DNA from: an uncultured Dokdonia sp.
GTDB taxonomy: Bacteria; Bacteroidota; Bacteroidia; Flavobacteriales; Flavobacteriaceae
DNA length: 64,000 nt
Direction of reading: 5' to 3'
Assembly (NCBI RefSeq): GCF_947496725.1
Contig: NZ_CANMDS010000003.1
Location: 496,001 to 560,000 of the forward strand
The position numbers and the translations under genes were made by a program. Shown piece after piece: positions 4,209 through 61,004 of the stretch. Positions within the stretch are counted from its first letter, which is position 1; each line of letters starts with the position of its first letter. The notes below the pieces were generated by a model. That model was not told the origin of the DNA. It worked only from the letters and a program-made list of their open reading frames with translations, and searched no databases.

Positions 4209-5068
4209 TATACCGCTTTAAGGCTTAAATCTAGATTATAAACAGAGTGTGTAAGTGCTCCACTAGAGATATAATCTACACCACAAAGTGCATACTCACG
4301 TATGGTCTCTTCATTAATACCACCAGAAGATTCTGTAAGGCATTTATCACCTATAAGAGCAACCGCCTTACGCGTATCTTCATAATTAAAATTATCAATA
4401 AGAATACGGTATACGTGCTCGTAATTTTCAAGAATCTCTTCTATCTCCTCAAGGCTTCTCGCCTCTACGATTATTTTAAGATCTCGATTTTCAGTTTTAA
4501 GATACGCTACAGTTTTAAGTATCGCCTTAGTCACTCCTCCAGCAAAGTCTATGTGATTATCCTTAAGCATAATCATATCATATAATGCAAAACGATGATT
4601 TTCTCCCCCTCCTATTTTTACTGCCCATTTTTCTAAGGCGCGTATACCTGGAGTGGTCTTTCTTGTATCAAGTATTTTTGTGCTTGTTCCCTCTAGTAGG
4701 TTTACAAAGAACTTTGTTTTGGTCGCTATGGCGCTCATACGTTGCATTGCGTTAAGTACCAGTCGCTCTGCCTTTAAGATGCTTTGGCTCGAGCCAGATA
4801 CATAAAATGCAATGTCTCCATACTTTACCTGGTCACCGTCTGTAAGTACATCTTCTACTACGAGGCTGTCATCTACGTAGGCAAATACCGCTTTCGCGAA
4901 AGCGCAACCCGCAAGAATCCCTTCATCCTTCACCAGTAACTTTGCTTTGCCCGTCGCATCTGCCGGAATACAAGCTAGGCTACTGTGATCTCCATCACCT
5001 ACATCTTCTCTTATTGCATTAGAAATTATACCATCTATCTCAAGCTGAAACTGCGCTTCTGTTATCAT
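4208..5068 (-). CDS. nadC: Nicotinate-nucleotide pyrophosphorylase (carboxylating), quinolinate phosphoribosyltransferase
   Basis: Converts quinolinate and PRPP to nicotinate mononucleotide, CO2 and PPi in de novo NAD synthesis. ATG at 5068 gives 286 residues (MITEAQFQLEIDGII), the usual length; a longer upstream start is not conserved. Hallmarks: REDVGDGDHSS at the N-terminus, LDTRKTTPGIRALEKWAVKIGGGENHR in the PRPP/quinolinate site, MLKDNHID, and the SSGGINEETI glycine-rich end. An exact copy of the palindromic repeat lies inside the gene (4889-4904) and encodes AFAKA in a helix-like stretch where homologues have different residues but no gap. First gene of a nadC-yihY pair, divergent from rlmH. 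Confidence 0.96.
   Translation of the reverse strand: MITEAQFQLEIDGIISNAIREDVGDGDHSSLACIPADATGKAKLLVKDEGILAGCAFAKAVFAYVDDSLVVEDVLTDGDQVKYGDIAFYVSGSSQSILKAERLVLNAMQRMSAIATKTKFFVNLLEGTSTKILDTRKTTPGIRALEKWAVKIGGGENHRFALYDMIMLKDNHIDFAGGVTKAILKTVAYLKTENRDLKIIVEARSLEEIEEILENYEHVYRILIDNFNYEDTRKAVALIGDKCLTESSGGINEETIREYALCGVDYISSGALTHSVYNLDLSLKAV
4889..4904. repeat. Palindromic repeat copy 1 (inside nadC)
   Basis: Exact GCTTTCGCGAAAGC core at 4890-4903, extended to 16 bp (CGC...GCG). Read in nadC as AFAKA. Confidence 0.95.
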
Positions 5069-5137
5069 AAAAATATAAAATACGGTTTCTGTAAAAATAA
5101 GGAAACACAAACACATCCATCGTCATAGAGAGATTTG

Positions 5138-5145
5138 TATTTTTG
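5138..5145 (+). promoter_or_regulatory. Possible -7 element of rlmH with nearly leaderless start
   Basis: TATTTTTG matches the Bacteroidota -7 consensus TAnnTTTG and ends 4 bp before the rlmH ATG. A start site 5-7 bp downstream would fall on the ATG itself. No good -33 TTG is seen, so confidence is limited. Confidence 0.4.
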
Positions 5146-5149
5146 CAAA

Positions 5150-5623
5150 ATGAATATAAAACTTCTATGCGTAGGCAAGACAGATAACAAGCAGCTACAG
5201 ACACTCGTAGACGAGTACAGCAAGCGCTTGAATTTTTATATTAAATACACTATTGAGACTCTTCCAGATATAAAGAATGTAAAAAATCTCAGTGAGCAAG
5301 AGCAAAAGACTAAAGAAGGTGCTCTCATACTTTCAAAATTGGGTCCCTATGATCACCTTGTGCTCTTTGACGAGAATGGCAAATCATTTTCGAGTGTAGG
5401 GTTTTCTAAGTTTTTACAAAAAAAGATGAACAGTGGTATAAAAACCTTAGTCTTTGTGATAGGAGGTCCTTATGGTTTTTCTCAAGAAGTTTACAATAAA
5501 GCGATAGGTAAAGTATCTTTGTCACAAATGACCTTCTCCCACCAGATGGTACGTTTATTTATCACAGAGCAAATTTATAGAGGGTTTACCATTTTAAAAG
5601 GAGAACCTTATCATCATCAATAA
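5150..5623 (+). CDS. rlmH: 23S rRNA (pseudouridine1915-N3)-methyltransferase RlmH
   Basis: SAM-dependent SPOUT methyltransferase that modifies pseudouridine 1915 in helix 69 of 23S rRNA, acting on the 70S ribosome. ATG at 5150 gives 157 residues, the standard family length (MNIKLLCVGKTDNKQLQTL). Visible motifs: LFDENGKSFSS, the SAM-binding knot VFVIGGPYGFS near residue 105, and the C-terminal SLSQMTFSHQMVRLFITEQIYRGFTILKGEPYHHQ. A TTG start five codons upstream is possible but overlaps the likely promoter. Divergent from nadC. Confidence 0.97.
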   Translation: MNIKLLCVGKTDNKQLQTLVDEYSKRLNFYIKYTIETLPDIKNVKNLSEQEQKTKEGALILSKLGPYDHLVLFDENGKSFSSVGFSKFLQKKMNSGIKTLVFVIGGPYGFSQEVYNKAIGKVSLSQMTFSHQMVRLFITEQIYRGFTILKGEPYHHQ

Positions 5624-5721
5624 ACCGAGCCCTACATAGTTTAACCAATATTTATGAGTACTAAAGATACTAAGACGCCGTACTCACGTTATTTTTGTAA
5701 TACATATACGACTACTATTTA

Positions 5722-6342: not shown

Positions 6343-6918
6343 ATGAAGTTAGTCTTTGCAACGCACAACCTTAATAAACTTAAGGAAGTACAAGCTCTTG
6401 TACCAGAGCATATCACTATATTATCACTTACAGATATAGGATGTGATGAAGATATTATAGAAGATGCACCTACTATAAAAGGTAACGCGATTATAAAAGC
6501 ACAATACGTACGTGATCATTATGGGTATGATTGCTTTGCAGATGATACGGGTCTCGAGGTTACCGCGCTAGATGGCGCACCTGGGGTATACTCTGCACGA
6601 TATGCAGGACCTCAAAGAAGTGCTTCAGATAATATGGATAAGCTTCTTATTGCTCTTGCAGTTAAACAAGATAGAACGGCGAGGTTTAAGACGGTTATCG
6701 CTTTCGCGAAAGCAGAAAAAATAGAGACTTTTACAGGCATATGTGAGGGAGAAATTACAAAAGAACGTTACGGAGATGACGGTTTTGGTTATGATCCTAT
6801 CTTTAAACCTAACGGCTACGAGGCCACTTTTGCCCAAATGGCAATATCCCTAAAAGGTAAAATAGGCCATAGAGGGCGCGCGATGCAGCAGTTTTTATCT
6901 TACTTAAGAGACGAGTAA
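6343..6918 (+). CDS. rdgB: Non-canonical purine NTP pyrophosphatase (RdgB/HAM1)
   Basis: Hydrolyses XTP, ITP and dITP to monophosphates, cleansing the nucleotide pool. 191 residues starting directly after the upstream stop (MKLVFATHNLNKLKEVQAL). Signatures: N-terminal THNxxKxxE, CFADDTGLEVTALDGAPGVYSARYAG, GDDGFGYDPIFKPNGYEATFAQM, and the C-terminal GHRGRAMQQF, where most relatives have SHR. An exact palindromic repeat at 6699-6713 encodes AFAKA within IAFAKAEKIETFTG, replacing part of a variable beta-hairpin without changing the length. Confidence 0.96.
   Translation: MKLVFATHNLNKLKEVQALVPEHITILSLTDIGCDEDIIEDAPTIKGNAIIKAQYVRDHYGYDCFADDTGLEVTALDGAPGVYSARYAGPQRSASDNMDKLLIALAVKQDRTARFKTVIAFAKAEKIETFTGICEGEITKERYGDDGFGYDPIFKPNGYEATFAQMAISLKGKIGHRGRAMQQFLSYLRDE
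6699..6713. repeat. Palindromic repeat copy 2 (inside rdgB)
   Basis: Exact GCTTTCGCGAAAGC core at 6700-6713. Translated as AFAKA. Confidence 0.95.
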
Positions 6919-9939: not shown

Positions 9940-9959
9940 TACGCTTTCGCGAAAGCGTA
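9940..9959. repeat. Palindromic repeat copy 3 (between convergent genes)
   Basis: Exact 20-mer TACGCTTTCGCGAAAGCGTA in the 37-bp gap between two convergent genes. No T-run follows, so it is not a standard terminator. Confidence 0.95.
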
Positions 9960-12890: not shown

Positions 12891-13976
12891 ATGTATAAAA
12901 AATGTTTTGTTGCTTTAAGCCTTCTCTACTGCAGTTTTATAACCGCACAAGAGGTTAATCCTTTTGAAGTTGAGCTCAATTATTTTTACGGGAGTATATT
13001 GAGGCACAACAAAGACATCACATCGCTCATAACTGGGCATCCAGAAGGGTTGATTTTAAGCTATAACAAGAAAACTTATGGTGAGCAAGAGTGGTCCAGA
13101 AGATATAATTACCCTGACTACGGATTTACATTGGCCTATCAAGATCTTAAAAATGACAACTTAGGCAAGACCTATAACGCTCTAGCGCATTACAGCTTCT
13201 ACTTTCTTAACAGAAAACTTATGGCCAGAGTTGGTCAAGGTATTGGGTATACTACAAATCCTTTTGACATTGAAACCAATGTAGCAAATAACGCTTATGG
13301 CTCAAGATTTTTTAGCGCCACACTTGTAATGCTTAACTACAAGCAACCGATTACCCCACAAATATCATTACAAACAGGACTTACCTTTTTACACGGGTCA
13401 AATGGTAATTTTAAAGCACCTAATACAAGTACAAACACCCTAGCAATTAACGCAGGTGTGGTCTATAAAAACAAACCGATTCCAGACTATATTCCCAGAG
13501 GACCTAGAGAACGCTATACAGAGCCTATAGGTTTTAATTTTGCTCTCAATATGGGGCTTAACGAGAGTGATTATGTTGGGCTGGGTCAAGAACCATTCTT
13601 GATCTTGACTGCTTATGCAGATAAGAGATTGAGTAAAAAAAGTACCATTCTTGCTGGAGCAGAGTTCTTTTTTTCAAAATTCTTAAAGAACGAAATTGAG
13701 TTTCTATCTGTAGCCTTCCCCTCATTTGGTGTTACAAAAGACCAAGATTGGAAACGAGCAGGCGTATTTGTGGGTCACGAATTGCGATTTAATAAAACCG
13801 CACTTATGACGCACGCCGGTTATTATGTGTACTATCCTTATGATTTTGAAGGTAGGTTCTACCAGCGCGTGGGGCTTAAACACTATATACAAGAAAAATA
13901 CTTTATTTCTGCTGCCGTAAAAACGCACGGAGCAAAAGCAGAGGCAGTAGAATTTGGATTAGGAATACGATTATGA
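12891..13976 (+). CDS. PagL-like acyloxyacyl hydrolase (lipid A 3-O-deacylase family), outer membrane
   Basis: 361 residues with a signal peptide (MYKKCFVALSLLYCSFITAQ) and alternating beta-barrel strands ending in a hydrophobic FGLGIRL. The central TFLHGSNGNFKAPNTSTN aligns with the PagL catalytic segment: His and Ser of H-x-S-N are present and the downstream K-x-PN is kept, but the position of the catalytic Glu (12 after the Ser) appears to be Asn. PagL removes the 3-O acyl chain from lipid A; activity here is uncertain for that reason. The stop overlaps the next start by 4 bp (ATGA), so it is coupled to the GIN lipoprotein gene. Confidence 0.8.
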   Translation: MYKKCFVALSLLYCSFITAQEVNPFEVELNYFYGSILRHNKDITSLITGHPEGLILSYNKKTYGEQEWSRRYNYPDYGFTLAYQDLKNDNLGKTYNALAHYSFYFLNRKLMARVGQGIGYTTNPFDIETNVANNAYGSRFFSATLVMLNYKQPITPQISLQTGLTFLHGSNGNFKAPNTSTNTLAINAGVVYKNKPIPDYIPRGPRERYTEPIGFNFALNMGLNESDYVGLGQEPFLILTAYADKRLSKKSTILAGAEFFFSKFLKNEIEFLSVAFPSFGVTKDQDWKRAGVFVGHELRFNKTALMTHAGYYVYYPYDFEGRFYQRVGLKHYIQEKYFISAAVKTHGAKAEAVEFGLGIRL

Positions 13977-14788
13977 TGACAACAAACTTCAGGTTTATAA
14001 GGGCTATATCTACGCTTTCGCGAAAGCGTAATTCCCTCCTACTCGCCCTACTGCTAGCATTTTTCATTTCTTGCGACTCTGAAGATGCAAATGATTGTTT
14101 TCAAACAGATGGAGACATCATAACGTATACACTTGATGTGGATACATTTTCAAAAATCCAAATGGAAGATGACATTCGCGTTATTCTTAAAGAAGGACCT
14201 CAACAACAAGTTATCGTTGAAACTGGCGAAAATCTAGTACCAGACCTCAACCTCTTTGTAGAACAAGAAACACTTGTACTGCAAAACCTAAATGGTTGTA
14301 ATTTTTTACGCGAGTATGGTAGAACTCTTGTAACTGTAACTTCACCAAATATTACTCGCATACGCCAGGCTTCTGCCTTTGAGATTACCAGTGAAGGTTT
14401 ACTCAACTATGAATCATTAACTATTGTAAGCAACTCAACTTCTAATAGCCTTAACATTACAGATATTAATAAAAGTGGTGCTGTGACGCTGCATATAAAC
14501 AGTACTAACCTGGTGATTTCTGCAAATGGATCAAGTAATATTACAATGTCTGGAAGTGTTGAAACGGCATCTATAAACTTTAGCGATGAGTTTCCGCAAT
14601 TCAATGGTAGAAACCTTGAGATAGGCGATTTAACCTTTAATCATACCAGTGCTGCACAAATGGTAGTAAATCCTCAAAACAGCCTACAAGGCGTTATAAA
14701 AGCCACAGGAGACCTTATATCTGTCACAGAACCACCGCTAGTCGATGTAGATGTGCTTTTTACAGGTCAATTAATTTTTGAAGATTAG
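13973..14788 (+). CDS. GIN-domain (DUF2807) lipoprotein
   Basis: 271 residues. The export signal is unusually long: a basic n-region followed by LLLALLLAFFISCD, whose Cys is a lipobox cysteine. Residues about 50-250 form the head-GIN/DUF2807 beta-helix (FSKIQMEDDIRVILKEGPQQQVIVETGENLVPDLNL..., repeated N-x-x-S strands such as ITMSGSVETASINFS). Members are surface-exposed or periplasmic, function unknown. Part of the n-region (TLSRKR) is encoded by an exact 20-bp palindromic repeat at 14011-14030. There is no later Met before the hydrophobic core, so the repeat is truly translated. Confidence 0.85.
   Translation: MMTTNFRFIRAISTLSRKRNSLLLALLLAFFISCDSEDANDCFQTDGDIITYTLDVDTFSKIQMEDDIRVILKEGPQQQVIVETGENLVPDLNLFVEQETLVLQNLNGCNFLREYGRTLVTVTSPNITRIRQASAFEITSEGLLNYESLTIVSNSTSNSLNITDINKSGAVTLHINSTNLVISANGSSNITMSGSVETASINFSDEFPQFNGRNLEIGDLTFNHTSAAQMVVNPQNSLQGVIKATGDLISVTEPPLVDVDVLFTGQLIFED
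14011..14030. repeat. Palindromic repeat copy 4 (in signal peptide of GIN lipoprotein)
   Basis: Exact 20-mer TACGCTTTCGCGAAAGCGTA, read as TLSRKR. Confidence 0.95.
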
Positions 14789-14850: not shown

Positions 14851-15231
14851 ATGGTAAAAGCAAAATATCAAAACGTTCTTGACCTAGGAGAAAAACTTAA
14901 CATCCAGAACGGAGATGTAAAAGAAGAAAATGGAGTACTTCACGTAACAGGTACTGCAACAAATCAATATGAGAAAAACCAACTTTGGGATGCTATAAAA
15001 GCGGCCGGAGGAGAAAATCCAGGTGACATTGTAGCAGACATTAAAGTCGCAGATACATCTGTTTATGCACGTCATACAGTTGCGAGTGGAGACACACTAG
15101 GCAAGATTGCAAAGCATTATTATGGAGATGCAATGAAGTACAAAGAGATTTTTGAAGCAAATAAAGACATCCTTAAAAACCCAGATGTTATACATCCAGA
15201 TCAGAATCTTGTGATTCCTAATCTAGGATAA
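14851..15231 (+). CDS. LysM/BON-domain protein (YgaU/Kbp-like)
   Basis: 126 residues without a signal peptide. Residues 1-70 resemble a BON-like domain (ENGVLHVTGTATNQYEKNQLWDAI, ADIKVAD) and residues about 75-124 a LysM domain (HTVASGDTLGKIAKHYYGDAMKYKEIFEANKDILKNPDVIHPDQNLVIP). The E. coli relative YgaU/Kbp binds K+ and is cytoplasmic; a similar small stress-linked role is plausible. Single gene, closed by a strong terminator. Confidence 0.88.
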   Translation: MVKAKYQNVLDLGEKLNIQNGDVKEENGVLHVTGTATNQYEKNQLWDAIKAAGGENPGDIVADIKVADTSVYARHTVASGDTLGKIAKHYYGDAMKYKEIFEANKDILKNPDVIHPDQNLVIPNLG

Positions 15232-15262
15232 TATTCAATAACAACATTGAATTACAATCATA

Positions 15263-15289
15263 AAAAAAGCTCCCAAATTGGGAGCTTTT
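15263..15289 (+). terminator. Intrinsic terminator after LysM gene
   Basis: AAAAGCTCCC-AAATT-GGGAGCTTTT stem loop 32 bp after the stop. The U-tract is short. Confidence 0.85.
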
Positions 15290-15380
15290 CACACTTTAGT
15301 CTAATCTAAAAGTTTTACGCTAAGTATTTAAAATCAAATACTTACAATGATTATATAAATTAATAATTTATATTTTAAAA

Positions 15381-16847
15381 TTATCCTAATCCTGAAATAT
15401 AATTACCATAAAGATCATTAAAACGCATCCCTGTGGTGAGTTTATACTTGCTCAGTTTCTTATATTCTACAAGTCCAAAAAGGATAAACTCTTTTAAGAA
15501 ATAGCGGTCCTCCTCTACTGTTTCGGGCTGATATTTATTTACGAGTTCTTCTAAAGGTGTAATGCTGTCTAGCATTAATTTGTATTCTTTGTCAGTCAAA
15601 TTATCTTCAAGCTCAAAACCACTTTGCTCAAAGAACCAAGCCAAGACATCACCATAAGGATCTTCTTGATTATCTTTTACAAGCTTTTCGATCTTTGGGA
15701 AATAATCATCAAAAAGTGAACGCGTTGCATCACCTATAAGAATTTTTGCAACCTCATCTGCTCCCTCTTGTTCTCCTTCATATACTAATTCTACCTTTCC
15801 GGTAATCGCAGGAATTATGCCCATAATATCAGAATATCGTATTGCAGTAGTTGCATCTCCAGATAACAACATACGACGCTCTGCTGTACTCATTAAGTTT
15901 TCAAATGCCGTTATACTCATACGTGCACTTATACCACTCTTTTCATCTATATACTCGCTCTCTCTAGCCACAAAACCTATCTCTTCTATAAGATCTTTTA
16001 CTAGGTTAGGTACGTGTACTTTAGTTTTCTGGCGCTCGTCTAGATTTGCTTCTTGATCTGTTATAGTACGCGCGATAGCCACTGTTTCTGGATAGTGAGT
16101 AAGTATTTGAGAACCTATACGATCTTTAAGCGGTGTAACTATACTTCCTCTATTTGTATAATCTTCTGGATTTGCAGTAAATACAAACTGCATATCAAGT
16201 GGTAGTCTCAATTTAAAGCCGCGTATTTGAATATCACCTTCTTGTAGAATATTAAACAAAGCCACTTGTATACGTGCTTGTAAATCTGGCAACTCGTTGA
16301 TTACAAAAATTGACCTGTTTGCACGAGGAATCATTCCGTAGTGTATCACGCGGTCATCTGCATAACTTAGTTTCAGGTTTGCTGCCTTTATAGGATCTAC
16401 GTCACCTACTATATCTGCAACAGTTACATCTGGTGTTGCAAGCTTCTCTGCAAAGCGCTCAGATCTATGTACCCAGTGGATAGGTGTGTCATCTCCTTTT
16501 TCCTTAATAAGCTCTGTAGCATACCTCGAGATAGGATTAAGTGGATCATCATTAATTTCTGAACCTGCTACTATAGGCATCCACTCATCAAGGAGGTTTA
16601 CCATCTGTCTTGCAAGTCTAGTTTTTGCCTGGCCACGTAGCCCTAAAAGATTGATATTATGTTTACTTAATATGGCTCTTTCTAGTTCTGGTATAACTGT
16701 GTGCTCGTAACCGTGTATACCTGTAAATGTAGGTGTACCTGCTTGTAATTTTGATATAAGGTGCTCGCGCAACTCTTCTTTTATACTTCTAGATGTCCAC
16801 GATGCTTTTTTAAGAGCTCCTAGTGTTTTTATTTCTGTATGATTCAT
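15381..16847 (-). CDS. MoxR/Mg-chelatase-type AAA+ ATPase
   Basis: 488 residues resembling the ATPase subunit of magnesium chelatase and MoxR/RavA proteins. The nucleotide site reads INLLGLRGQAKTRLARQM (GxxGxxKT), the Walker B position SIFVINELPDL has Asn-Glu rather than Asp-Glu, sensor 1 is FVFTANPEDYTNRG with the following DRIGSQILTHYPE, and a lid domain follows. Such ATPases work with a vWA partner as chaperones or insertases; the gene directly upstream (16901-18022) encodes one, with a 53-bp gap. The physiological target is unknown. No porphyrin or chlorophyll genes are nearby, so chelatase activity is unlikely. Confidence 0.88.
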   Translation of the reverse strand: MNHTEIKTLGALKKASWTSRSIKEELREHLISKLQAGTPTFTGIHGYEHTVIPELERAILSKHNINLLGLRGQAKTRLARQMVNLLDEWMPIVAGSEINDDPLNPISRYATELIKEKGDDTPIHWVHRSERFAEKLATPDVTVADIVGDVDPIKAANLKLSYADDRVIHYGMIPRANRSIFVINELPDLQARIQVALFNILQEGDIQIRGFKLRLPLDMQFVFTANPEDYTNRGSIVTPLKDRIGSQILTHYPETVAIARTITDQEANLDERQKTKVHVPNLVKDLIEEIGFVARESEYIDEKSGISARMSITAFENLMSTAERRMLLSGDATTAIRYSDIMGIIPAITGKVELVYEGEQEGADEVAKILIGDATRSLFDDYFPKIEKLVKDNQEDPYGDVLAWFFEQSGFELEDNLTDKEYKLMLDSITPLEELVNKYQPETVEEDRYFLKEFILFGLVEYKKLSKYKLTTGMRFNDLYGNYISGLG

Positions 16848-16900
16848 AGCTATTCTTGTTTTACCTCATCTCACAATGAGGTATCTATTTTTTTTTACAA

Positions 16901-18022
16901 TTATTTTATTCTCTTCTTTCTGTTGCTTTCATAATCTTGAAAGATCATCTCTCCTAGACCTTGCAGTCCTGTATAGAACGCTTTTCCTTGGTTTGCCTCA
17001 GTAAAATTATCTACAAACTGCTGCAGGTAAGGATCATTTGCAATCATAAAAGTGGTGATAGGTATATGAAGCTTACGGGCTTGTCTAGCCATACTGTAAC
17101 ACTTGTTTACAATATACTCGTCTAGTCCATTTGGATTTTTATAGTAGCGCCCATCTTTAAGCTTTATACAAGACGGTTTACCATCTGTAATATTAAAGAT
17201 CTGTTTATTTGAGTTACGCTTACGTCTCAAGATATCCATAGCGAGATTAAGACCTGCTACTGTGTTAGTGTGATAAGGACCAACTTGTAAATACGGTAAA
17301 TCCTTAATTTTAATAGGCCAGGCATCATTACCATATACGATGATATCTAAAGAGTCTTTTGGATACCTCGTTGTGATGAGCTGTGCAAGTGCCATCGCTA
17401 CCTTTTTGGCTGGAGTAATACGGTCTTCTCCATAAAGTATCATACTGTGCGATATATCTATCATAAGTACGGTACTCATCTGTGCCTTAAAGTGGGTTTC
17501 TTCCACCACTAGATCGCTTTCGCGTAAGCGGAAATCTTCTGCGCCATTATTAATTTGAGCATTGCGCAAACTTTCTGTCATAGAGATACGCTCTAGCCCA
17601 TCACCAAAACGATACTCGCGATAGTCACCAGTATGCTCATCTCCTCTACCGTTAAGTTTTGACCTATGGTTACCCTGAGAGCTCTTTTTAAGCTTCCCAA
17701 AAATTTGATCTAGGGCTCTCTTGCGTATGGCGCGCTCTGTCTTCTCTGTGATAGCCGTGCCGTTGTTACCATCTGGCTTAATTTCTTCTCGTATGTAGCC
17801 TTTGTCTTTAAGCTCCTGTACAAAGTCGTCTAAGGTATACTCATCATTTGTGAGTTTATATTCTTTATCAAGCTCTTTGAGCCAGTCCATCGCCTCGTCA
17901 AAATCACCAGAGGTGTGGGTGATGAGCTCTTGAAATATATCAAGCAGCTGGTCAAAAAGGGATTTTTGCGGAGCGTCATAGGTTTTGAATACAAAACCGC
18001 TCCTATTTTGTTGTTTTCTCAT
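16901..18022 (-). CDS. von Willebrand factor A domain protein, partner of MoxR-like ATPase
   Basis: 373 residues, cytoplasmic. The N-terminal half is helical and charged. The vWA domain occupies about residues 180-360 with a complete metal site: DISHS (STVLMIDISHSMILYG), Thr in HTNTVAGLN, and Asp in ITDGKPSC. Acts presumably as the substrate adaptor for the downstream AAA+ ATPase. First gene of the pair. At 17515-17530 the sequence CGCTTTCGCGTAAGCG is a one-mismatch variant of the palindromic repeat, read as RLRES. Confidence 0.88.
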   Translation of the reverse strand: MRKQQNRSGFVFKTYDAPQKSLFDQLLDIFQELITHTSGDFDEAMDWLKELDKEYKLTNDEYTLDDFVQELKDKGYIREEIKPDGNNGTAITEKTERAIRKRALDQIFGKLKKSSQGNHRSKLNGRGDEHTGDYREYRFGDGLERISMTESLRNAQINNGAEDFRLRESDLVVEETHFKAQMSTVLMIDISHSMILYGEDRITPAKKVAMALAQLITTRYPKDSLDIIVYGNDAWPIKIKDLPYLQVGPYHTNTVAGLNLAMDILRRKRNSNKQIFNITDGKPSCIKLKDGRYYKNPNGLDEYIVNKCYSMARQARKLHIPITTFMIANDPYLQQFVDNFTEANQGKAFYTGLQGLGEMIFQDYESNRKKRIK

Positions 18023-18054
18023 AGCTGTATAAAATTACTACCTAATAGGTCAAT

Positions 18055-18080
18055 AAAAAAGCGCCTCGACAGAGGCGCTT
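18055..18080 (-). terminator. Intrinsic terminator after fasciclin gene
   Basis: GCGCCTC-GACA-GAGGCGC (18061-18078) with an A-run on the plus strand, i.e. a T-run after the hairpin on the minus strand. Confidence 0.9.
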
Positions 18081-18109
18081 CTTAATTCTTTATTAAAAGT
18101 GAGTGGTAA

Positions 18110-18703
18110 TTACTTCCCTTTAGGCATAATTACAGTATCTATAGCGTGTATCACTCCGTTTGAAGCATCTACATCTGTCATAATAATTACAGATGTCCCA
18201 CCTTTTGCATCCTTAATAACGACGTTATCTCCGTCCATCATTAAAGTAATTTGCTCTCCCATCACTGTGTTTGTACTAAAAGAACCATTGTTCTTTTTAA
18301 TAGCAGCAACTACGTCTCCAGCCATATACTCACCAGCTACTACGTGGTAGGTTAAGATATCTGTTAACATTGCTTTGTTTTCTGGCTTTACTAGAGTACC
18401 TACAGTTCCTTCTGGAAGTTTTGCAAAAGCATCATTTGTAGGTGCAAATACAGTAAACGGTCCCGTACTTGCTAATGTTTCCACAAGTCCTGCTGCTTTT
18501 ACAGCTGTTACTAGTGTTGTAAAATTTTCATTACCCACAGCGATATCTACTATTGTACCTGGCTCTTCTACCACAGGCTCTTCTAGTTCTACTACTGCTT
18601 GTGCAACTTCCTCATTTGTTTCTGTTGCTTTTTCTTTAGTTCCTTCGGCGCAAGAAGCAAATAATAATCCTGCTGTTGCTGCCATTAATAAGATCTTTTT
18701 CAT
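18110..18703 (-). CDS. Fasciclin (FAS1) domain lipoprotein
   Basis: 197 residues. [21 protein letters not shown] is a lipoprotein signal with the acylated Cys at about residue 18, followed by an acidic Glu/Val-rich linker. The FAS1 domain (residues about 60-195) shows [41 protein letters not shown], the [13 protein letters not shown] strand and [15 protein letters not shown]1 domains mediate adhesion; the protein would sit on the envelope. It has its own promoter-like element and terminator. Confidence 0.93.
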
Positions 18704-18726
18704 AACAATTGGTTTTTTTATTTGTT

Positions 18727-18753
18727 CAAAGATATGTTCATATTCTTAAACAA
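18727..18753 (-). promoter_or_regulatory. Promoter of the fasciclin gene
   Basis: On the minus strand TTG (18751-18753), 16 bp, then TATCTTTG (18727-18734), matching TTG...TAnnTTTG with slightly short spacing, 24 bp before the ATG. Confidence 0.5.
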
Positions 18754-18814
18754 AAAGCCAATGTTATACCAATGTCTTGTTAATTATTTCATAAGACCTT
18801 ATTAGGGATACAAT

Positions 18815-18834
18815 TACGCTTTCGCGAAAGCGTG
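18815..18834. repeat. Palindromic repeat copy 5 (divergent intergenic)
   Basis: Exact core at 18818-18831; 19 of 20 bases match the extended unit. Lies between the divergent fasciclin and Asp-box genes. Confidence 0.95.
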
Positions 18835-18952
18835 AATAAAACCTTTAAAACATAGGGCATCCATTAACAACTATTTAAGAAATTAAGATTGTCTTTTAAT
18901 TAACTTTAGTCCCTTGACCGAAAGGTTATTATAATTCAACCAAAATTTTATA

Positions 18953-21900
18953 ATGAAACAACTCTTCTCACTCCTACTGCTATGCATCTGCACAGTAGTA
19001 TCTGCTCAAAAACTTGATATGTCCTTGCTCAAGGATGTACAACCCCGTAACATAGGCCCAGGCGGTATGTCTGGACGTGTGACTGCTATAGATGTGGTTA
19101 CAGATAATCCAGATGTAATGTACGTAGGTACAGCTTCTGGAGGTTTATGGAAATCTACTTCTGGCGGAATAAAATGGGATCCTGTTTTTGAAAACGAGCT
19201 CACAGCATCTATAGGGGCGGTAGCGATACAGCAATCTAACCCATCTGTGATATGGGTAGGTACAGGTGAAGGAAATCCGCGTAACTCTCTTAATGGTGGT
19301 TATGGTGTTTATAAATCACTAGATGGCGGTAAGACGTGGCAATCTATGGGATTAGAAAAAACCCGTCACATACACCGTGTTATTATAGATCCTACTAATC
19401 CAGATGTGGTTTATGTGGGCGCTATAGGTTCTCCTTGGGGAGAACACCCAGAACGTGGCGTTTTTAAAACTACAGATGGTGGTAAAACTTGGAACAAGAT
19501 TTTATTTACAAACATCAAGTCTGGTGTGGCAGATATGGTTATGGACCCTACAAATCCTAATAAACTTATTGTAGCAATGTGGGAGCACAAACGTGACCCT
19601 TGGTTCTTTAAGTCTGGTGGTGCAGGTTCTGGTATGTATATGACGCACGATGGTGGTGACACTTGGAAAGAGCTCACAGATCAAGATGGACTTCCTAAAG
19701 GAGAACTAGGTCGTATAGGTCTCTCTATTGCGCCTGGAAGCCCTAACGTGGTTTATGCGCTTGTAGAAGCAAAGAAGAATGCATTGTACCGCTCTAATGA
19801 TGGTGGCTTTAACTGGAAAAAGATTAATGACAAGAGTGATATAGGCAACAGACCATTTTACTATAGTGATATACACGTAGATCCACAAAATGAAAATCGT
19901 GTGTTTTCTGTATTTACTTATGTAAACGTATCTGAAGATGGTGGAAAGAACTTTGACCAACTTATGGGCGCTTACGGAGTAGATAATGGAGTACACCCAG
20001 ATCACCACGCCTGGTGGATACACCCTAATAATGGGAAATTTATGATGGACGGTAATGACGGCGGTCTTAACATCACAAAAGATGGTGGTAAGACGTGGCG
20101 TTTTATAGGTAACTTACCTGTAGCTCAGTTTTATCACATTAATGTAGATAATGAGTTTCCTTATAATGTATATGGAGGTATGCAAGATAATGGATCGTGG
20201 AGAGGACCTGCCTATGTATGGAAAGCTCAAGGGATACGTAACGATTACTGGCAAGAAATCTCTTTTGGAGATGGTTTTGACGTAGTGCCAGATCGCGATG
20301 ACAGCCAGTACGGGTGGTCTATGAGTCAGCAGGGGTTTGTGAGCCGTTATGATTACAAAACAGGAAATAACTATGGTGTAAAGCCTACGCACCCAGATGC
20401 AGATGTAAAACTTCGTTTCAACTGGAACAGTGCTATTAATATTGATCCTTTTGATAACAGTACTATATACTTTGGTAGTCAGTTTGTACACAAGTCTACA
20501 GATAAAGGACTCACTTGGGAAATAATCTCTCCAGACCTTACTACAAACGACCCAGAGAAACAAAAGCAATCTGAATCTGGTGGTCTTACTATGGATGCCA
20601 CCGGTGCAGAAAATCACACTACCATTCTTGTTATAGAACCTTCTCCGCTTGAAAAAGATATGTTTTGGGTAGGTACAGACGATGGCCGTGTACATTATAC
20701 TACAAATGGCGGATCATCATACACAGAAGTGTCTAATAACTTAAAAGGTTTACCAAAAGGAAGCTGGATTGTACAAATTAAAGCAAGTGATAAGAATAAA
20801 GGTGAAGCGCTTCTAGTTGCAAACGACTATAGACGCTTTAACTACACTCCTTATGCCTACAGAACCACAAATTATGGTAAAAGCTGGACGCGCATTGTAG
20901 ATGAGAATGATGTGCAGAGTTATGCATTATCAATTATAGAAGATCCAGAAGAAAAGAATCTTTTGTTCTTAGGTACAGATGACGGTCTTTATGTGTCTAT
21001 TGATGCAGGTAACAACTGGCAGAAATGGACTAAAGGATTCCCTACTACTTCGGTAAAAGATTTAGTAATTCACCCTAGAGAGCACGATCTTGTCATTGGG
21101 ACCTTTGGGCGTGCAGCCTGGGTTCTTGATGATATAAGACCACTGCGTAAGATAGCGAGTGATAGAAGTACGCTTTCGCGAAAGCTACAACTCTTTACCC
21201 CTCCTACTGCATATGACGCATCATACCAGCAACCTACGGGAAGTCGTTTTGGAGCAGATGCCATCTATAACGGTGAGAACAGAAAAAGCGGTGCGCAAAT
21301 CGCTTACTATGTTACTAAACAAAAAGTAGATAAAAAGAAAAAAGGTGATAAGAAAGATGCTGAAGAAGCAGATGAGGCAAAAGTAACTTGGGATTCTATC
21401 CACCTTAAAATATATGATGGTGCTAGACAGATACGTCACCTCAAGTGGAAAACTCCAGACAGTACCGGTATTTATAAAACTACTTGGTATATGAATGAGT
21501 CTGGTGGTGATCGCCCATCTAGACGCGTTAGAAAACGTAAGAATGAAACTAGAGGAGTTTCTGTTAAACCAGGAACTTACAAGCTTGTAATGCAGTATGG
21601 AGATCAAACAAGCGAGAGCGCTATCACAGTAGAGAGCGACCCAAGGTATGATGTGCCGCAAAAAGCAATAGACGATAGTTACAATGCTGCCAAAGATCTT
21701 GAAGCGATGACTCAAGTAGCCGCAGATGCTGTAAAACAGCTTGTAGAGAGCAAGAATCTTGCAAATGATTACAAGAAAATGATTAACAAACTTGATGATA
21801 AAAAGGCGTATAAAGATGAGCTAGCCTCTATAAAAGATATGGATAAGCGCATAGATGAGGTAATCGCATTATACATAGGTAAGGTAGATAAAAGGCAGGG

Positions 21901-43709: not shown

Positions 43710-43732
43710 ATATGATTTATTTACATACCAAA

Positions 43733-43789
43733 CTACCTCGCTTGAGCGATTGCTGTAGTGTGGTGATGATGTGTTTTGTTCAATTTCAT
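43733..43789 (-). CDS. hisL: his operon leader peptide
   Basis: A 19-codon frame, ATG at 43789 to TAG at 43733, encoding MKLNKTHHHHTTAIAQAR with four consecutive His codons (codons 7-10). It lies between a good promoter and an intrinsic terminator in front of hisG. When His-tRNA is scarce the ribosome should stall on the His codons, leaving CTCAAGCG (codons 15-17) free to pair with the terminator 5' arm, so transcription continues into hisG. When His is plentiful the ribosome reaches the stop, covers that segment, and the terminator forms. Not a random frame: position, His run and pairing all agree. Confidence 0.87.
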   Translation of the reverse strand: MKLNKTHHHHTTAIAQAR

Positions 43790-43797
43790 TTCTGTAG

Positions 43798-43827
43798 CAA
43801 ATTTAAGAAGTCTTTTGTTAAAAACAA
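43798..43827 (-). promoter_or_regulatory. Promoter of the his operon
   Basis: Minus strand TTG (43825-43827), exactly 19 bp, then TAAATTTG (43798-43805), a perfect TTG-N19-TAnnTTTG. The start site would be 4-6 bp before the hisL ATG, so the leader mRNA is almost leaderless. Confidence 0.8.
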
Positions 43828-43925
43828 GTGAATAAACTGATTTAATAATTACTTAACACACGTAACTTTTTAGTAGATTTGAAATAGCGCTTTAAAAATT
43901 ATAATTAAAGCACAGATATGTTACT

Positions 43926-45776: not shown

Positions 45777-45779
45777 ATA

Positions 45780-45796
45780 AGCTTTCGCGAAAGCGT
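45780..45796. repeat. Palindromic repeat copy 13 (intergenic)
   Basis: Exact core 45781-45794; right side GCGTC, left side lost. Next to the 45728-45776 terminator. Confidence 0.95.
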
Positions 45797-45832
45797 CATC
45801 TTAACACTTTCATATAATTTTATGAGAGTATT

Positions 45833-46669: not shown

Positions 46670-48703
46670 TTAAGTAAGTCCATTATACTTGCGCATAAAC
46701 CACTCCAAAGCGAGCAATAATGCCAAAATTGCAAGTAGTAATTTCCAGTCTATAAAAGGTACACTATTTTTTGTACTCTTCTGTATAGGTTTATATCTAT
46801 TATCTGCAATGAGCGACGTTATAAGTTTATCTAAACTTACAGGGTTATATAAACCGCCATCTGTATGAGACGCTAGAAGTTGTAGCTGTGTTACATTTGC
46901 ATTTAAAAATTGTTGCTCTATATCAAAAGGAACAATTGTAAAAGATCCAGAACGCGCGATACCTTGATCTGCTACAGATACGGTAAACTTATAACTTCCA
47001 GGCTCAAGATTATTCATATCTACTTGATAGGTGTTCTTTTTAAGTAATAATGGAATCTCTGTAAGCTTTTTTGACTCCTGGTTTATCACTTTTATAGACA
47101 CCTTAGCCCTTGCATCAAAATTGTAATTTTTATCAAAGTACTGTGCATAAAGCATCACTGCTTTATTGCCATAGTAAAACGACTCATAATCTAAGTTAAG
47201 TCTACTTTTCTTCTTGTTTGAAGCAGCATATTGTACTAGATTATCTATAAAATTATCAAAAGATTTAAAATCACGCTTGTCTACAAAACTCTGTGCTCGC
47301 CACTTCCATAAACCTTCTCCTAATATATATACCTCTCTTCTTCCACTATCTTCTGTTGTGGCTATAAGTGGTTGATTAGTCTCTACAAGGCCTATACTTT
47401 GTGATAAAGCAATGTCTGCTTTTGTATTAAAACGCGTCTCTCCAAAGGCCGCAACTAGGGGTGGGAAATCGTCAAAACCTATATCTTCAATTACAAATGC
47501 AGAAAAGTTAGGATTAAGCCGAGCTTGTACTTCTTCTGTTTGACCTGTAATCTCTTGTGTGATTGTTTTTTGAAATTTATTTATAGCATTCCAGCCAGTG
47601 TGCTCTCCAGTTATTGTTATACTATTTTTAGCTAGTGTTTCTAGTTGTTTATAGACATCATTAAAACTTGCGTCTGGTTGATAGAGTATAATAAGTTCAT
47701 ACTCATTTATTTTAGAAACCGCGTCTGATGGTTTTGTGAAGGTAACCGTGCGCAATCTATTACTCTCAATACTCTTTTTAAGCATTCCCACATCTGGGTG
47801 AACTATATTACTTATAAGAAGTACATTCGTTTTTTGATCTATAACCTCTATCGCAAAGTTTTTATAGTTATTGCTTTTATTCTTCTCACTTGCAACAGGC
47901 ACAAGACTCACACTATATTGTCTCACTCCTACTTGTGTTGCAGGAACTTCTATATTAAAAATTTGTGATGCTTTTTCTGGGCTAAAATTTACAGACTCTC
48001 GATGAAGCACCTTCCCGCCAGAACGCACAGATAAAGTAGAGTTTATAGTCCCCTCACCGTTATATGTGGCAAATATCTCAACAGGAAATTTATTATTTAT
48101 ATAAGCATACCTATTTACATTGATCTGCCCCAGCTTAAGATCATCATAAATGATAGTGTCACCCAGTACAACAGGATACACTTGTTGATTATAATTTTGA
48201 GCAACATACTGGTAGGCCTCACCATAGGTTTGATTACCATCAGAGAGTAAAACGACGGGAGCTACATCTGTTGTATAAATATCTTCAAGACCACGCAAAG
48301 CGTTTGAGATATTAGTCTGCTTATTAGTAAATGAAAGGGAATCTAGTGATTTAAAATCATCTCCAAATTGATAGTACTGAATATCAAAAGCATCGTTGAG
48401 TTTTGCGCTTTCGCGAAAGCGGGATATCACTTCTTGAGACACACCATCATAACCAAGGTGGGCAATACTAGAAGAATTATCTACAGCGACAGCCAGTGAA
48501 GGCTTCTCTGTGTAGTAAGATACTTGCTCATACTTAGGGTTAATAAGTAAAAGCAGTAATCCAAAAATGGTTAAAAATCGTAAAAATGTATAAACGCGAT
48601 TGCGCTTACTTTTATATTTAACACGATAGAAATATTGAAAAACCGCTACTCCCAGTGAGAGAATAGCAGCTCCAATAATTAATAATAGTGTCTCTGTTTG
48701 CAA
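46670..48703 (-). CDS. Large membrane-anchored vWA-domain protein
   Basis: 677 residues. Two membrane helices at the N-terminus (LLIIGAAILSLGVAVFQYF and FLRFLTIFGLLLLLI) and one at the C-terminus (LLLAILALLLALEWFM). A vWA domain follows the first two: metal site DNSSSIAHLG, then ISNALRGLEDIYTTDVAPVVLLSDGNQ. The middle is beta-rich, extracytoplasmic. Similar large vWA proteins occur widely in Bacteroidota without a known role. Copy 14 of the palindromic repeat (48406-48421) encodes RFRESAK in SRFRESAKLN. 37 bp after fabG. Confidence 0.85.
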   Translation of the reverse strand: MQTETLLLIIGAAILSLGVAVFQYFYRVKYKSKRNRVYTFLRFLTIFGLLLLLINPKYEQVSYYTEKPSLAVAVDNSSSIAHLGYDGVSQEVISRFRESAKLNDAFDIQYYQFGDDFKSLDSLSFTNKQTNISNALRGLEDIYTTDVAPVVLLSDGNQTYGEAYQYVAQNYNQQVYPVVLGDTIIYDDLKLGQINVNRYAYINNKFPVEIFATYNGEGTINSTLSVRSGGKVLHRESVNFSPEKASQIFNIEVPATQVGVRQYSVSLVPVASEKNKSNNYKNFAIEVIDQKTNVLLISNIVHPDVGMLKKSIESNRLRTVTFTKPSDAVSKINEYELIILYQPDASFNDVYKQLETLAKNSITITGEHTGWNAINKFQKTITQEITGQTEEVQARLNPNFSAFVIEDIGFDDFPPLVAAFGETRFNTKADIALSQSIGLVETNQPLIATTEDSGRREVYILGEGLWKWRAQSFVDKRDFKSFDNFIDNLVQYAASNKKKSRLNLDYESFYYGNKAVMLYAQYFDKNYNFDARAKVSIKVINQESKKLTEIPLLLKKNTYQVDMNNLEPGSYKFTVSVADQGIARSGSFTIVPFDIEQQFLNANVTQLQLLASHTDGGLYNPVSLDKLITSLIADNRYKPIQKSTKNSVPFIDWKLLLAILALLLALEWFMRKYNGLT
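48406..48421. repeat. Palindromic repeat copy 14 (inside vWA gene)
   Basis: Exact core 48407-48420, flanked C and G. Read as RFRES. Confidence 0.95.
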
Positions 48704-49557: not shown

Positions 49558-49577
49558 TACGCTTTCGCGAAAGCGTA
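49558..49577. repeat. Palindromic repeat copy 15 (between sucD and fabG)
   Basis: Exact 20-mer TACGCTTTCGCGAAAGCGTA, intergenic. Confidence 0.95.
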
Positions 49578-52663: not shown

Positions 52664-52677
52664 AACGCTTTCGCGAA
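52664..52677. repeat. Degenerate palindromic repeat
   Basis: ACGCTTTCGCGAAA, i.e. the left two-thirds of the unit, the right arm replaced by ATAGG. Lies 105 bp from copy 16, in the efp-lpxA gap. Confidence 0.8.
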
Positions 52678-52767
52678 AATAGGAAAAGATTACCACTCTC
52701 CCCTCTTGATTATTATTCTGTCACCTCGCGGCTAAAGCTAGAGGTTGTTTGATATGGTTTATATTCC

Positions 52768-52785
52768 GCTTTCGCGAAAGCGTAA
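52768..52785. repeat. Palindromic repeat copy 16 (efp-lpxA gap)
   Basis: Exact core 52769-52782 with right extension GTA. Two copies occupy this 193-bp gap. Confidence 0.95.
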
Positions 52786-57274: not shown

Positions 57275-57294
57275 TACGCTTTCGCGAAAGCGTA
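57275..57294. repeat. Palindromic repeat copy 17 (between HD gene and porX)
   Basis: Exact 20-mer TACGCTTTCGCGAAAGCGTA, divergent intergenic, 63 bp before the porX ATG. Confidence 0.95.
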
Positions 57295-58910: not shown

Positions 58911-58930
58911 TACGCTTTCGCGAAAGCGTA
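58911..58930. repeat. Palindromic repeat copy 18 (after porX)
   Basis: Exact 20-mer TACGCTTTCGCGAAAGCGTA, 6 bp past the porX stop and followed by a separate terminator. Confidence 0.95.
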
Positions 58931-58972: not shown

Positions 58973-58999
58973 GTGATGCTATAAAATATCAAAACGTAG

Positions 59000-60847
59000 T
59001 TACCCCGTTTTATTAATTCGCTCTAAAAAGTCTATCACATTATCATCTTTTTTTGTCACAGCAGTCTCTTTAATACCCTCTAGATTCTTAATAAAATAAG
59101 ATACAGAGAGTCCAGTCACACGCTTAAAGTGTGTAGAAAATGATTTTACGTTAGAAAAACCTATCTCCTCTGCAATGGCGGCAACGGTGTATGAACGTAG
59201 TTTATGAGAAGCATACAGCTCCGTAAGCACATAATTAACACGTAAATCACTTAGGTACGTAGAAAAATTATCAGATTTTTCTACGTTAATGTATTTAGAA
59301 AGATAGGAGGCGTTTGTTCCTATTTGTGCAGCAAGACTCTTAAGCGTCACGTTATGAGAAGTAAAAAGGGCCTTTTTCTCAAAACGGTCTAGACCTTCTT
59401 GTATCTTTTCTAGTTGCGCTGGCTTTATGTGTGATAAAGGGCCGTCTTGCTCAGCTTTTACAACTGCTAAGGTTTCTTCGGCTTCCATTATAGGGTTTGT
59501 TTCTTGTACGACCCACTCACTATATATGGCGCGCAATTTTTCAAAACGTTGTTTTAAAATACGTCGCTTTCTATATTGAATAAGCGCATAAAATAGGGCA
59601 AGTAACCCTAGGCTTATAAAAAAAATAAGACCAACCGTGCGCTGTTTTTTATCACCCTCAAGACTTTGTATGACTGCTTCCTTTTCTGAGAGTAATTGAG
59701 GGATCGTATAAGATGCTACAATACCATCACCTATGGTTTTACTAAGTGATCCATAATCCTCTTCATAGGTTATCATTTTATTTAGGTACTCAATTTGTTT
59801 TGTGCTATTACCCGTGTTTTTGTAGTGTGTAAGGAGGTAATCGTAGGTGGTTTTAAGTTCTTGAAAGAAATAATCTGCACCACCAGTCTTGTGTAAACTA
59901 TCAGTTTTAAGAAATGAAGCGAGCGCCTCTTCAGGCTGCCGTAGTCCTTTATGAGCAATACCTTTTAAAGCATAAGAGCGTGATAACTCATCATCATCTG
60001 CATCTAGATTTTCAACCAAATATTGATTAGTAAACTTTAATCCCTCTTTAAAATTATGTGATTTAATATAGATGCCTGCTTGTAACCCTACGTAGGATAA
60101 ATAATAGTCATTATCACTAGCATCTTTTGCATATTGCTCAATCTTTGATATATAATGTGTGGCGCTGTCTAATTCATTTATATCATAATAAGCAGTAGCA
60201 ATATTATATTGCACAGATGCCAATGTTTCTTTATAAAAAGCTTCATCACCATATAGAAATATTTTTCTGATCTTATCTGTACTGTAGGTCTTTTCAATTT
60301 CTTTTAAAACTTGTATTCCCTCAACGGCTTTATTATTATTAACAAGTAATACTGCTATTAAGTTTTTTAGAGACCATTCATTTGATAAGTTTTTAGATTT
60401 TTCTGCAAATTTTAAGGCCTCTTGAGCTGTATCATAAGATTCTTGTAGTTGATCAATGTAAAGAAGATTGATAGCCTTTTCAATTAATATCTGCTCATAT
60501 AAGTCTGATGATTCTTGTTTGTCTGTATGTTGAAGTGCATAATCTATACTTGCAATATCTCCTCTAAAAGTACCCAAATTACTATAAAATTTAGCAAAGT
60601 CAGCTTTTAGCTCTTTTTGCTGAGCTTCTATAATCAGAGACTTAGCATAGAGTTCTATAGTGAGTGAATCTACATCTGCAGGTGGCTCAACTGCAAATTT
60701 AAAAAACTGTTTTCTAAGTACTGAGTAGTCTATAGAAGCTATAGAATCTGGTACTTCTTGATCTGTGATATACGGTAGGTCTTGGCTGGATACCAAAGCT
60801 GGTAGGCAAAGAAGTATTGTTAAGAAATATAAGGTGTAAACCTTCAT
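59000..60847 (-). CDS. TPR-transmembrane-AraC one-component regulator (paralogue 1)
   Basis: 615 residues. Signal peptide or anchor (MKVYTLYFLTILLCLPALVSSQ), then about 380 residues of TPR-like helices (YNIATAYYDINELDSATHYISKIEQYAKDA, EALASFLKTDSLHKTGG) outside the cytoplasm, one membrane helix (TVGLIFFISLGLLALFYALIQY), a coiled region, and an AraC-type HTH pair (about 490-600: VTLKSLAAQIGTNASYLSKYINVEKSDNFSTYL and YTVAAIAEEIGFSNVKSFSTHFKRVTGLSVSYF). Senses an external signal and regulates DNA directly. The 61021 gene upstream is a paralogue with a nearly identical HTH part and a diverged sensor. Confidence 0.9.
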   Translation of the reverse strand: MKVYTLYFLTILLCLPALVSSQDLPYITDQEVPDSIASIDYSVLRKQFFKFAVEPPADVDSLTIELYAKSLIIEAQQKELKADFAKFYSNLGTFRGDIASIDYALQHTDKQESSDLYEQILIEKAINLLYIDQLQESYDTAQEALKFAEKSKNLSNEWSLKNLIAVLLVNNNKAVEGIQVLKEIEKTYSTDKIRKIFLYGDEAFYKETLASVQYNIATAYYDINELDSATHYISKIEQYAKDASDNDYYLSYVGLQAGIYIKSHNFKEGLKFTNQYLVENLDADDDELSRSYALKGIAHKGLRQPEEALASFLKTDSLHKTGGADYFFQELKTTYDYLLTHYKNTGNSTKQIEYLNKMITYEEDYGSLSKTIGDGIVASYTIPQLLSEKEAVIQSLEGDKKQRTVGLIFFISLGLLALFYALIQYRKRRILKQRFEKLRAIYSEWVVQETNPIMEAEETLAVVKAEQDGPLSHIKPAQLEKIQEGLDRFEKKALFTSHNVTLKSLAAQIGTNASYLSKYINVEKSDNFSTYLSDLRVNYVLTELYASHKLRSYTVAAIAEEIGFSNVKSFSTHFKRVTGLSVSYFIKNLEGIKETAVTKKDDNVIDFLERINKTG

Positions 60848-60870
60848 AAGGGAAACTAACTAATAGCCGA

Positions 60871-60912
60871 CAAAAATAAAGATTACATTTTAAATTTTAC
60901 GAAATTTCTTAC
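60871..60912 (-). promoter_or_regulatory. Promoter and shared operator-like element of regulator 1
   Basis: TATTTTTG on the minus strand (60871-60878) fits TAnnTTTG. 20 bp further upstream lies GTAAGAAATTTCGT (60899-60912), which is repeated exactly in front of the paralogue at 62919-62932 with 19-bp spacing. Confidence 0.55.
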
Positions 60913-60980
60913 GTCTTTACAATCTAGTTATACTTTAAGCCACCTATTGATCATATAAAACTTCAATATTACAAAGAGTA

Positions 60981-61004
60981 AGTACGCTTTCGCGAAAGCG
61001 TACT
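60981..61004. repeat. Palindromic repeat copy 19 (between tandem regulators)
   Basis: Longest copy: exact 20-mer at 60983-61002, with the perfect palindrome extended to 24 bp by AG...CT. Directly behind the stop of regulator 2. Confidence 0.95.

Follow-up and report, generated by a model that had tools for sequence, protein, structure and literature searches.

The object of this study is a 14-bp palindrome, GCTTTCGCGAAAGC, which recurs along a stretch of 64,000 nucleotides (64 kb) from an uncultured Dokdonia sp. of the family Flavobacteriaceae (RefSeq assembly GCF_947496725.1, contig NZ_CANMDS010000003.1, positions 496,001 to 560,000), referred to below as the window. The window contains 19 copies of the 14-mer, nine of them as the exact 20-mer; nine copies lie within open reading frames (ORFs) and ten in the gaps between them. 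These counts agree with an earlier examination of the letters alone (the sequence-only reading), as do its coordinates, except for one copy that is shifted by a base (52768, not 52769). Far less than one copy had been predicted by chance in 64 kb, and the background calculation bears this out: with up to two mismatches allowed, 0.19 matches are expected and 21 are observed, a number reached by 0 of 100 shuffles. Rfam gave no match in the window.

Copies of the palindrome in the window

The copies are described here by 20-bp spans to which no strand is assigned, and fractions denote the relatives in which the 14-bp core is exact at the orthologous position. Among the coding copies, those at 4887-4906 (14-mer at 4890; 2/3) and 6697-6716 (14-mer at 6700; 3/3) are located in the ORFs of a quinolinate phosphoribosyltransferase (4208-5116) and a Ham1-family protein (6343-6918), respectively, and an exact 20-mer at 14011-14030 (3/3) in that of a DUF2807 protein (13973-14788). 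Further copies occur at 21169-21188 (3/3) in ORF 18953-22147, at 29658-29677 (3/3) in a NusB-family ORF (28895-29839) and at 31368-31387 (3/3) in an ABC transporter ORF (30015-31775). Two exact 20-mers are placed in the genes for a glutamine amidotransferase (38945-38964 in ORF 38690-39271; 4/5) and histidinol dehydrogenase (41893-41912 in ORF 41486-42769; 5/5), the core of the latter being exact also in genome G230, which belongs to a different genus. The remaining coding copy, at 48404-48423 in ORF 46670-48703, is exact in all ten relatives compared.

The intergenic copies include exact 20-mers at 9940-9959, 34079-34098 (4/4), 49558-49577 (6/9, the forms in G010, L003 and L004 being misaligned or absent), 57275-57294 (upstream of porX; 7/9), 58911-58930 (downstream of porX; 5/5) and 60983-61002 (1/1), as well as copies at 18815-18834 (3/3), 45778-45797 (5/5) and 25349-25368, the last directly past ORF 24131-25345. 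The copy at 52765-52784 (14-mer at 52768) is poorly conserved (1/7); G005, G007, G008 and L002 have in common a form that lacks the outer GC. Four degenerate variants had also been proposed for the window. Two of them are genuine near misses, namely GCTTTCGCGTAAGC at 17516-17529 (one mismatch, in ORF 16901-18022) and GCTTTCGCGAAAAT at 52667-52680 (two mismatches, one half without the outer GC); those at 2095 and 39822 carry three mismatches each, a class that is only about twice as frequent as background.

Abundance and distribution

The whole Dokdonia genome (3,291,590 bases in 121 contigs) contains 905 copies of GCTTTCGCGAAAGC, i.e., about 275 per Mb, and none of the same pattern read backwards; tolerance of one mismatch raises the total to 976, that is, by 71. 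This genome-wide count, which the sequence-only reading had suggested as a check, is far from background level, and the copies are spread over the genome, not confined to one region with the flanks of a mobile element.

All 17 other genomes of the genus Dokdonia hold 369–903 copies. In a draw of 397 genomes from the family six exceed 100 copies: two of genus g1 (905 and 857), all three genomes of genus g11 present in the draw (578, 664, and 609) and G230 of genus g210 (408). The remaining 391 genomes have 0–19 copies each, and besides the host genome none of the 395 genomes drawn from the phylum has more than 6. PorX identity (G011 with D. sinensis, G281 with N. xylanidelens) points to g1 as Dokdonia and g11 as Nonlabens. 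Among the Bacteroidota genomes searched, high copy number is restricted to Dokdonia, Nonlabens and one Flavobacteriaceae genome of a third genus.

The nearest relatives of the window found by PorX search are Dokdonia (99% for L001). The 14-mer occurs in 10 of 80 named PorX loci (four of four Dokdonia, six of seven Nonlabens) and in none of the other 69; the seventh Nonlabens locus, L062, is only 5.8 kb long. A tree of this single gene built by a quick method (104 rows, including the nearest 80 named loci and 23 from genome searches, with L062, L109, and L110 labeled as motif-bearing by genus though their own loci lack it) needs two changes, and allows a single origin of the motif without proving it. 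No comparable motif excess was detected in other genera among the 80 named loci, where at most 21.6 kb per genome were covered and shared genes inflate counts. Two other repeated words were observed in these loci: GTCGGGATGACA in Gillisia (11 copies in 50.8 kb of L066, L074, and L075) and the palindrome AGGAATTCCT in Kordia and Winogradskyella (six times in 151 kb and six times in 302 kb), the latter in counts that exceed the expectation from composition and that shared genes may inflate.

Architecture of the element

The element is symmetric and extends over about 55–65 bp, with a strict 14-bp palindromic core, often lengthened to TACGCTTTCGCGAAAGCGTA, and two arms of about 20–25 bp. Its structure was examined in 148 Dokdonia sites (the window plus 20 samples of 20 kb from the genome G016) and in a 326-site set; L258, which is orthologous to part of the window, was kept in both of these sets as well as in the coding counts and the near-miss set. 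Around the 148 sites the composition departs from background to about ±25 bp and the outward strand is rich in A and C, with G at 1–4% from +4 to +7 and 3–15% from +8 to +25, against a background of 19%. Over the 326 sites outward G amounts to 1–14% at +4 to +19 (10% or less at 13 of 16 positions in each subset), and its avoidance is alike in 169 coding and 157 intergenic sites. Nonlabens sites (32 coding and 32 intergenic) display the same skew, with A peaks at +3, +4, +7, +10, and +13, and the 24 sites of G230 a weaker one.

The sequence-only reading had found no conserved flanking sequence, a view that does not hold for the window itself: over outward bases 4–25 of its 19 sites, G and C number 85 and 48 on the 5' side and 24 and 124 on the 3' side, which corresponds to a skew score of 137 compared with −0.6 ± 17.8 for random places (maximum 62 among 2000). 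GC-rich viral contigs served as a negative control: the 54 copies in them among the matches listed lack the skew (C 0.29, G 0.29), and are probably chance matches.

Left and right arms show no overall covariation at positions 1–20 in the Dokdonia or Nonlabens sets, with the exception of position 1 in Nonlabens, where variants are few (z 3.6). As the arms do not covary, the site looks like double-stranded DNA that is read half by half rather than a hairpin. A hairpin or cruciform was rejected on these grounds and because a single compensated double change (GCTTCCGCGGAAGC) occurs among 75 near misses (74 shown). A separate observation concerns position ±5 of the G016/Dokdonia sites, where covariation is negative (z −3.3, at one of 20 positions in two sets), with 133 outward pairs T/A and A/T, 63 T/T and 30 A/A; it is a possible hint, without explanation, of a hidden asymmetry in a palindromic site.

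The core is strict. In 1.16 Mb there are 75 near misses with one or two mismatches vs. 326 exact copies, and 33 of the 75 have one half-site intact and A or T replacing the outer GC in the other, so that WWTTTCGCGAAAGC recurs as a second form. With L258 excluded, forms with one, two, and three mismatches number 7, 19, and 18 in 444 kb, compared with means of 0.05, 0.7, and 9.1 (±6.2 for the last) for 60 shuffled palindromes, and those with four and five are in no clear excess (93 vs. 83 and 634 vs. 543).

Spacing and placement on the chromosome

The sites are regularly spaced. The coefficient of variation of 127 inter-site distances is 0.49, against 0.92 under uniform placement (minimum 0.71 in 2000 trials), and six of these distances are below 1 kb where 36.5 are expected; the Fano factor for 20-kb counts is 0.30. 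In 800 contiguous kb of G016 (209 sites, mean distance 3.8 kb) the coefficient is 0.75 because of gaps of up to 24.9 kb, and 126 of 208 distances fall within 1.5–4.5 kb. Each of the 20 samples of G016, which cover 12% of the chromosome, is occupied by 3–9 sites; together they hold 129 sites in 400 kb (322 per Mb) and are richer than the genome as a whole, where 899 sites in 3.29 Mb correspond to 273 per Mb. No sector depletion or confinement was seen among these samples, for which ori and ter were not located.

Two of the site-free gaps contain integrase genes. The longest (24.9 kb) is an integrase island with genes for a TonB receptor, a P-type ATPase and an Eco57I-type methylase, adjoining a ychF-type gene, and that of 13.3 kb includes integrase and hipA genes. 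Another gap of 13.9 kb comprises six ORFs, one of 2388 aa. Two further site-free gaps, G016:C1 1594900-1607919 (L323-L324) and 1967753-1980133 (L362-L256), each consist of one ORF, with 4339 and 4126 aa, respectively.

Intergenic DNA is preferred: 76 of the 148 sites are coding and 72 non-coding, whereas the ORF model predicts 132 coding. The 67 gap sites with two neighbors are found between same-strand (39), divergent (16), and convergent (12) genes. With half of the sites in genes, mixed gap orientations and arms that do not covary, an intrinsic terminator was rejected, and the proposal that the palindrome is neither promoter nor terminator stands on the whole.

Conservation and recombination between species

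Conservation of the core exceeds that of its surroundings. In G005, G007, and G008, which are 79, 85, and 79% identical to the window overall, all 14 bases of the core match in 44 of 48 cases (14, 15, and 15 of 16, respectively); the core is 98–100% identical, against 67–88% for bases 10–40 bp from the center. Eight other sources, near and far, add 24 exact cores in 33 comparisons (G016 6/6, L001 6/6, L002 4/5, G003 3/4, L004 2/4, G010 1/3, L003 1/3, and G230 1/2).

At the coding site 48404-48423, 41 matching proteins from motif-free loci align without a gap (0/41) but have only 10% of the residues specified by the motif, a comparison which indicates that within genes the DNA word dictates the protein sequence. 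An insertion element was rejected on the basis of this ungapped site and the positions kept across species. Over 12 sites 331 of 838 protein matches have a gap within four residues, nearly all at four LpxD-like sites and one other Nonlabens site, and many of these are alignments of repeat proteins; the remaining sites have few gaps (L004 3/4). Hence the earlier view that the palindrome is not a mobile element is upheld in general, with the reservation that some LpxD-like gene sites lie in gap-rich stretches that allow single insertions.

The relative G007 is a mosaic when compared with the window per kb: the segments at about 15–27 kb and 36–44 kb (window 15000-27200 and 36000-44000) are 93–99% identical, mostly 97–98%, and the rest 67–87%. 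By sequence identity, these tracts represent long homologous import between Dokdonia species.

Stray copies in islands, viral contigs and phages

In low-copy genomes the copies are often clustered, and the same pair of copies, 933 bp apart, recurs in G118, G127, G141, G254, and G200. Nine of 12 stretches around stray copies (L081-L084, L086-L088, L090, and L091, but not L085, L089, and L092) align with one another over kilobases and constitute an island shared by Flavobacteriaceae of several genera; in L081 its proteins are of heavy-metal efflux types (AcrB-type, outer-membrane efflux, multicopper oxidase, P-type ATPase, HlyD-type). Taken over all 12 stretches, 33 sites display the arm skew (C 0.25, G 0.11). 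The shared stretches would be islands that gained the element in hosts rich in it and then moved. Two related Nonlabens phages, P12024S and P12024L, have no copy in 70.7 kb.

A probable tag for self-DNA and its alternatives

The element is most likely a genome tag that lets the cell, or the machinery with which it takes up DNA, recognize its own chromosome. Within this general view we favor, as a tentative assignment from the combined analyses, a genome-wide palindromic DNA uptake sequence kept by uptake-biased recombination. A symmetric (dimeric or two-sided) protein would read the element as double-stranded DNA, competent cells would favor environmental DNA bearing the tag, and the tagged DNA, once recombined into the chromosome, would create, restore, and spread tags. 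Such an uptake drive would leave exact tags in permissive spots, at a spacing close to the length of an imported fragment, and islands of recent arrival would lack them. Speaking for this view, and directly observed, are the copy numbers, their restriction to a few lineages, the strictness of the core and its conservation in position, the skewed arms that do not covary, the regular spacing, the two integrase islands free of sites, the long tracts recombined between species and the presence of comEC and dprA genes; recognition by a protein, a role in uptake and maintenance by drive are inferred. A further and somewhat more doubtful proposition is that this would be the first such self-DNA tag in Bacteroidota, a two-armed palindrome of about 60 bp recognized at the surface or in the periplasm, which could provide orientation-free, genus-wide barcoded uptake through a receptor unlike those of the DNA uptake sequence (DUS) of Neisseria and the uptake signal sequence (USS) of Haemophilus.

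A number of observations weigh against a role in uptake. To our knowledge, the uptake sequences that can be named are oriented and not palindromic. Genes for ComEC and DprA occur in 10 of 10 genomes, eight with the high-copy motif and two without it, and therefore cannot explain the restriction to certain lineages; no receptor gene was found, though no gene-by-gene profile was made. Enrichment in import-like tracts is weak: for 310 kb of G016 and 52 kb of the window there are 40 sites within them vs. 33.9 ± 3.7 (P 0.055), the densities inside and outside being 6.3 and 4.5 per 20 kb in G016 and 6.1 and 6.8 in the window, where sites are thus slightly rarer in the tracts. P was 0.03 when only the first 400 kb were considered, and conserved genes can mimic imports. 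Recently acquired DNA sends a mixed message, as the two integrase islands are site-free and large genomes have fewer sites per Mb, yet G016 stretches that do not align with G007 DNA are not site-poor, their 252 kb holding 67 sites at a density of 5.3 per 20 kb. Moreover, among the matches listed, some AT-rich viral contigs with phage genes carry the tag: L174, L143, and L157 have three, two, and two copies in 11–14 kb alongside head, terminase/portal or tape-measure genes. At least 31 AT-rich viral sites among the matches listed have a weak arm skew (C 0.19, G 0.13; 80 of 120 stretches examined). Finally, a search of open-licence papers yielded none that deals with natural transformation in Dokdonia.

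In the window itself, the ORF at 34115-35650 encodes an ATPase related to the DNA-translocating ATPases CedD, CedB, and HerA, with matches below curated cut-offs. The 14-mer was not found in print. Of the papers that contain the inner 10-mer, none has a title on a repeated bacterial motif, and TTTCGCG was not found in the passages of PMC5217627 examined. Riemerella columbina, placed in the same family by its authors, prefers its own DNA in transformation, and A/T-rich words no longer than 10 bp are listed in that study with their function left open (PMC7965970).

Of the roles put forward by the sequence-only reading, those of uptake signal and of nucleoid or condensin site both stand, the former ranked somewhat higher, and a HIP1-type or methylation-guarded repeat is not supported. 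In the main rival explanation, which we consider possible but rather unlikely, the element is the binding site of a lineage-specific chromosome-organizing protein (nucleoid-associated or a loader of SMC/ParB type), with some 900 dimer sites, one every few kb, at which the nucleoid would be anchored or bridged, and selection that keeps each of them exact. Regular spacing and the occupation of every G016 sample agree with it. A perfect palindrome whose half-sites are independent and whose arms are symmetric is a typical target of intracellular homodimers, and 33 of the 75 near misses keep one half intact. The palindrome and its independent half-sites fit such a dimer at least as well as they fit uptake, so this rival stays strong. 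It lacks a candidate protein, however; the sites read by the dimers of Noc, SlmA, ParB, and MatP, which are palindromes that organize chromosomes, number in the tens and are biased toward ori or ter, whereas the motif has about 900 copies, no empty sample and no sector bias of the kind seen for Noc, SlmA, and MatP. In addition, parS- and Noc-type words are absent from 1.16 Mb (SlmA and MatP words were not searched), gaps of 10–25 kb are tolerated, and same-genus genomes of 4.3–5.5 Mb, whose extra DNA would need organizing, hold no more sites (570–903) than those of about 3.3 Mb (794–905). An improbable alternative is a bidirectional Chi-like recombination or repair signal that would attenuate resection of the AddAB/RecBCD type. 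Chi in Escherichia coli has a density of about one per few kb, as does the motif (one per about 3.6 kb); the C-poor 5' arms would suit recombinase loading, the strand asymmetry (C-poor 5', G-poor 3') limits single-strand pairing within an arm, A peaks recur at +4, +7, +10, and +13 in Nonlabens, and both Nonlabens phages and both integrase islands are devoid of sites. Known Chi sites, however, are 5–8 nt long, oriented and non-palindromic, and the site-by-site conservation seems too strict for redundant sites. All explanations of other kinds, taken together, also appear improbable.

A HIP1-type repeat, which DNA methylation and biased repair would generate and maintain, is very improbable. Like HIP1 and the alternate HIPs of cyanobacteria the motif is a highly iterated palindrome, but HIP1 has 8 bp and about 1000–2000 copies per Mb (PMC4390886), whereas the motif has an invariant core of 14 bp with arms reaching 20–25 bp further, and about 275 copies per Mb. 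Furthermore, none of the four methyltransferase families searched (others, e.g., PF07669, were not) is common to the 12 motif genomes, which is why methylation finds no support: PF01555, PF00145, PF02086, and PF02384 exceed the cut-off in 2, 6, 6, and 11 of them, and the host genome has 0, 0, 1, and 3 matches, respectively. Least probable of all is a mobile repeat copied around the genome, i.e., a repetitive extragenic palindrome (REP), a REP doublet forming hairpins (REPIN) or a miniature inverted-repeat transposable element (MITE). High copy number, clustered copies on the metal-resistance islands of other genera and the gapped alignments around LpxD-like gene sites speak for it, but roughly half of the copies are coding (76 of 148; RAYT transposases were not searched), they keep their positions across species with flanks that share only the arm skew, the 41 motif-free matches at 48404-48423 are ungapped, and on the islands the tag is carried by a larger element.

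Comparison with known systems and significance

The motif resembles DUS and USS in its high copy number, conservation of the core beyond its surroundings, permissive positions and lineage restriction; for Neisseria DUS, better conservation than the surroundings, permissive core positions and absence from recently acquired genes have been described (PMC2397512). DUS and USS number 1,892 and 1,465 copies, and USS lie about 1 kb apart (PMC7811141), compared with a mean distance of about 3.6 kb for the motif. The motif differs in being palindromic, in its 14-bp core with G-avoiding arms of about 20–25 bp on both sides and in belonging to a different phylum. Its one-mismatch forms stand at 71 to 905 exact copies, a ratio without a matched count for DUS or USS.

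Bacteria of the host group live in the ocean and are used as rhodopsin models. If the element is an uptake tag, motif-guided transformation would reach another phylum, with a different geometry, and would help to explain the tracts imported from species to species. If it is instead a chromosome-organizing site, it would provide a map of binding sites whose density and strictness are, by our judgement rather than by census, unusual, and a ready handle on the organization of the nucleoid in Bacteroidota.

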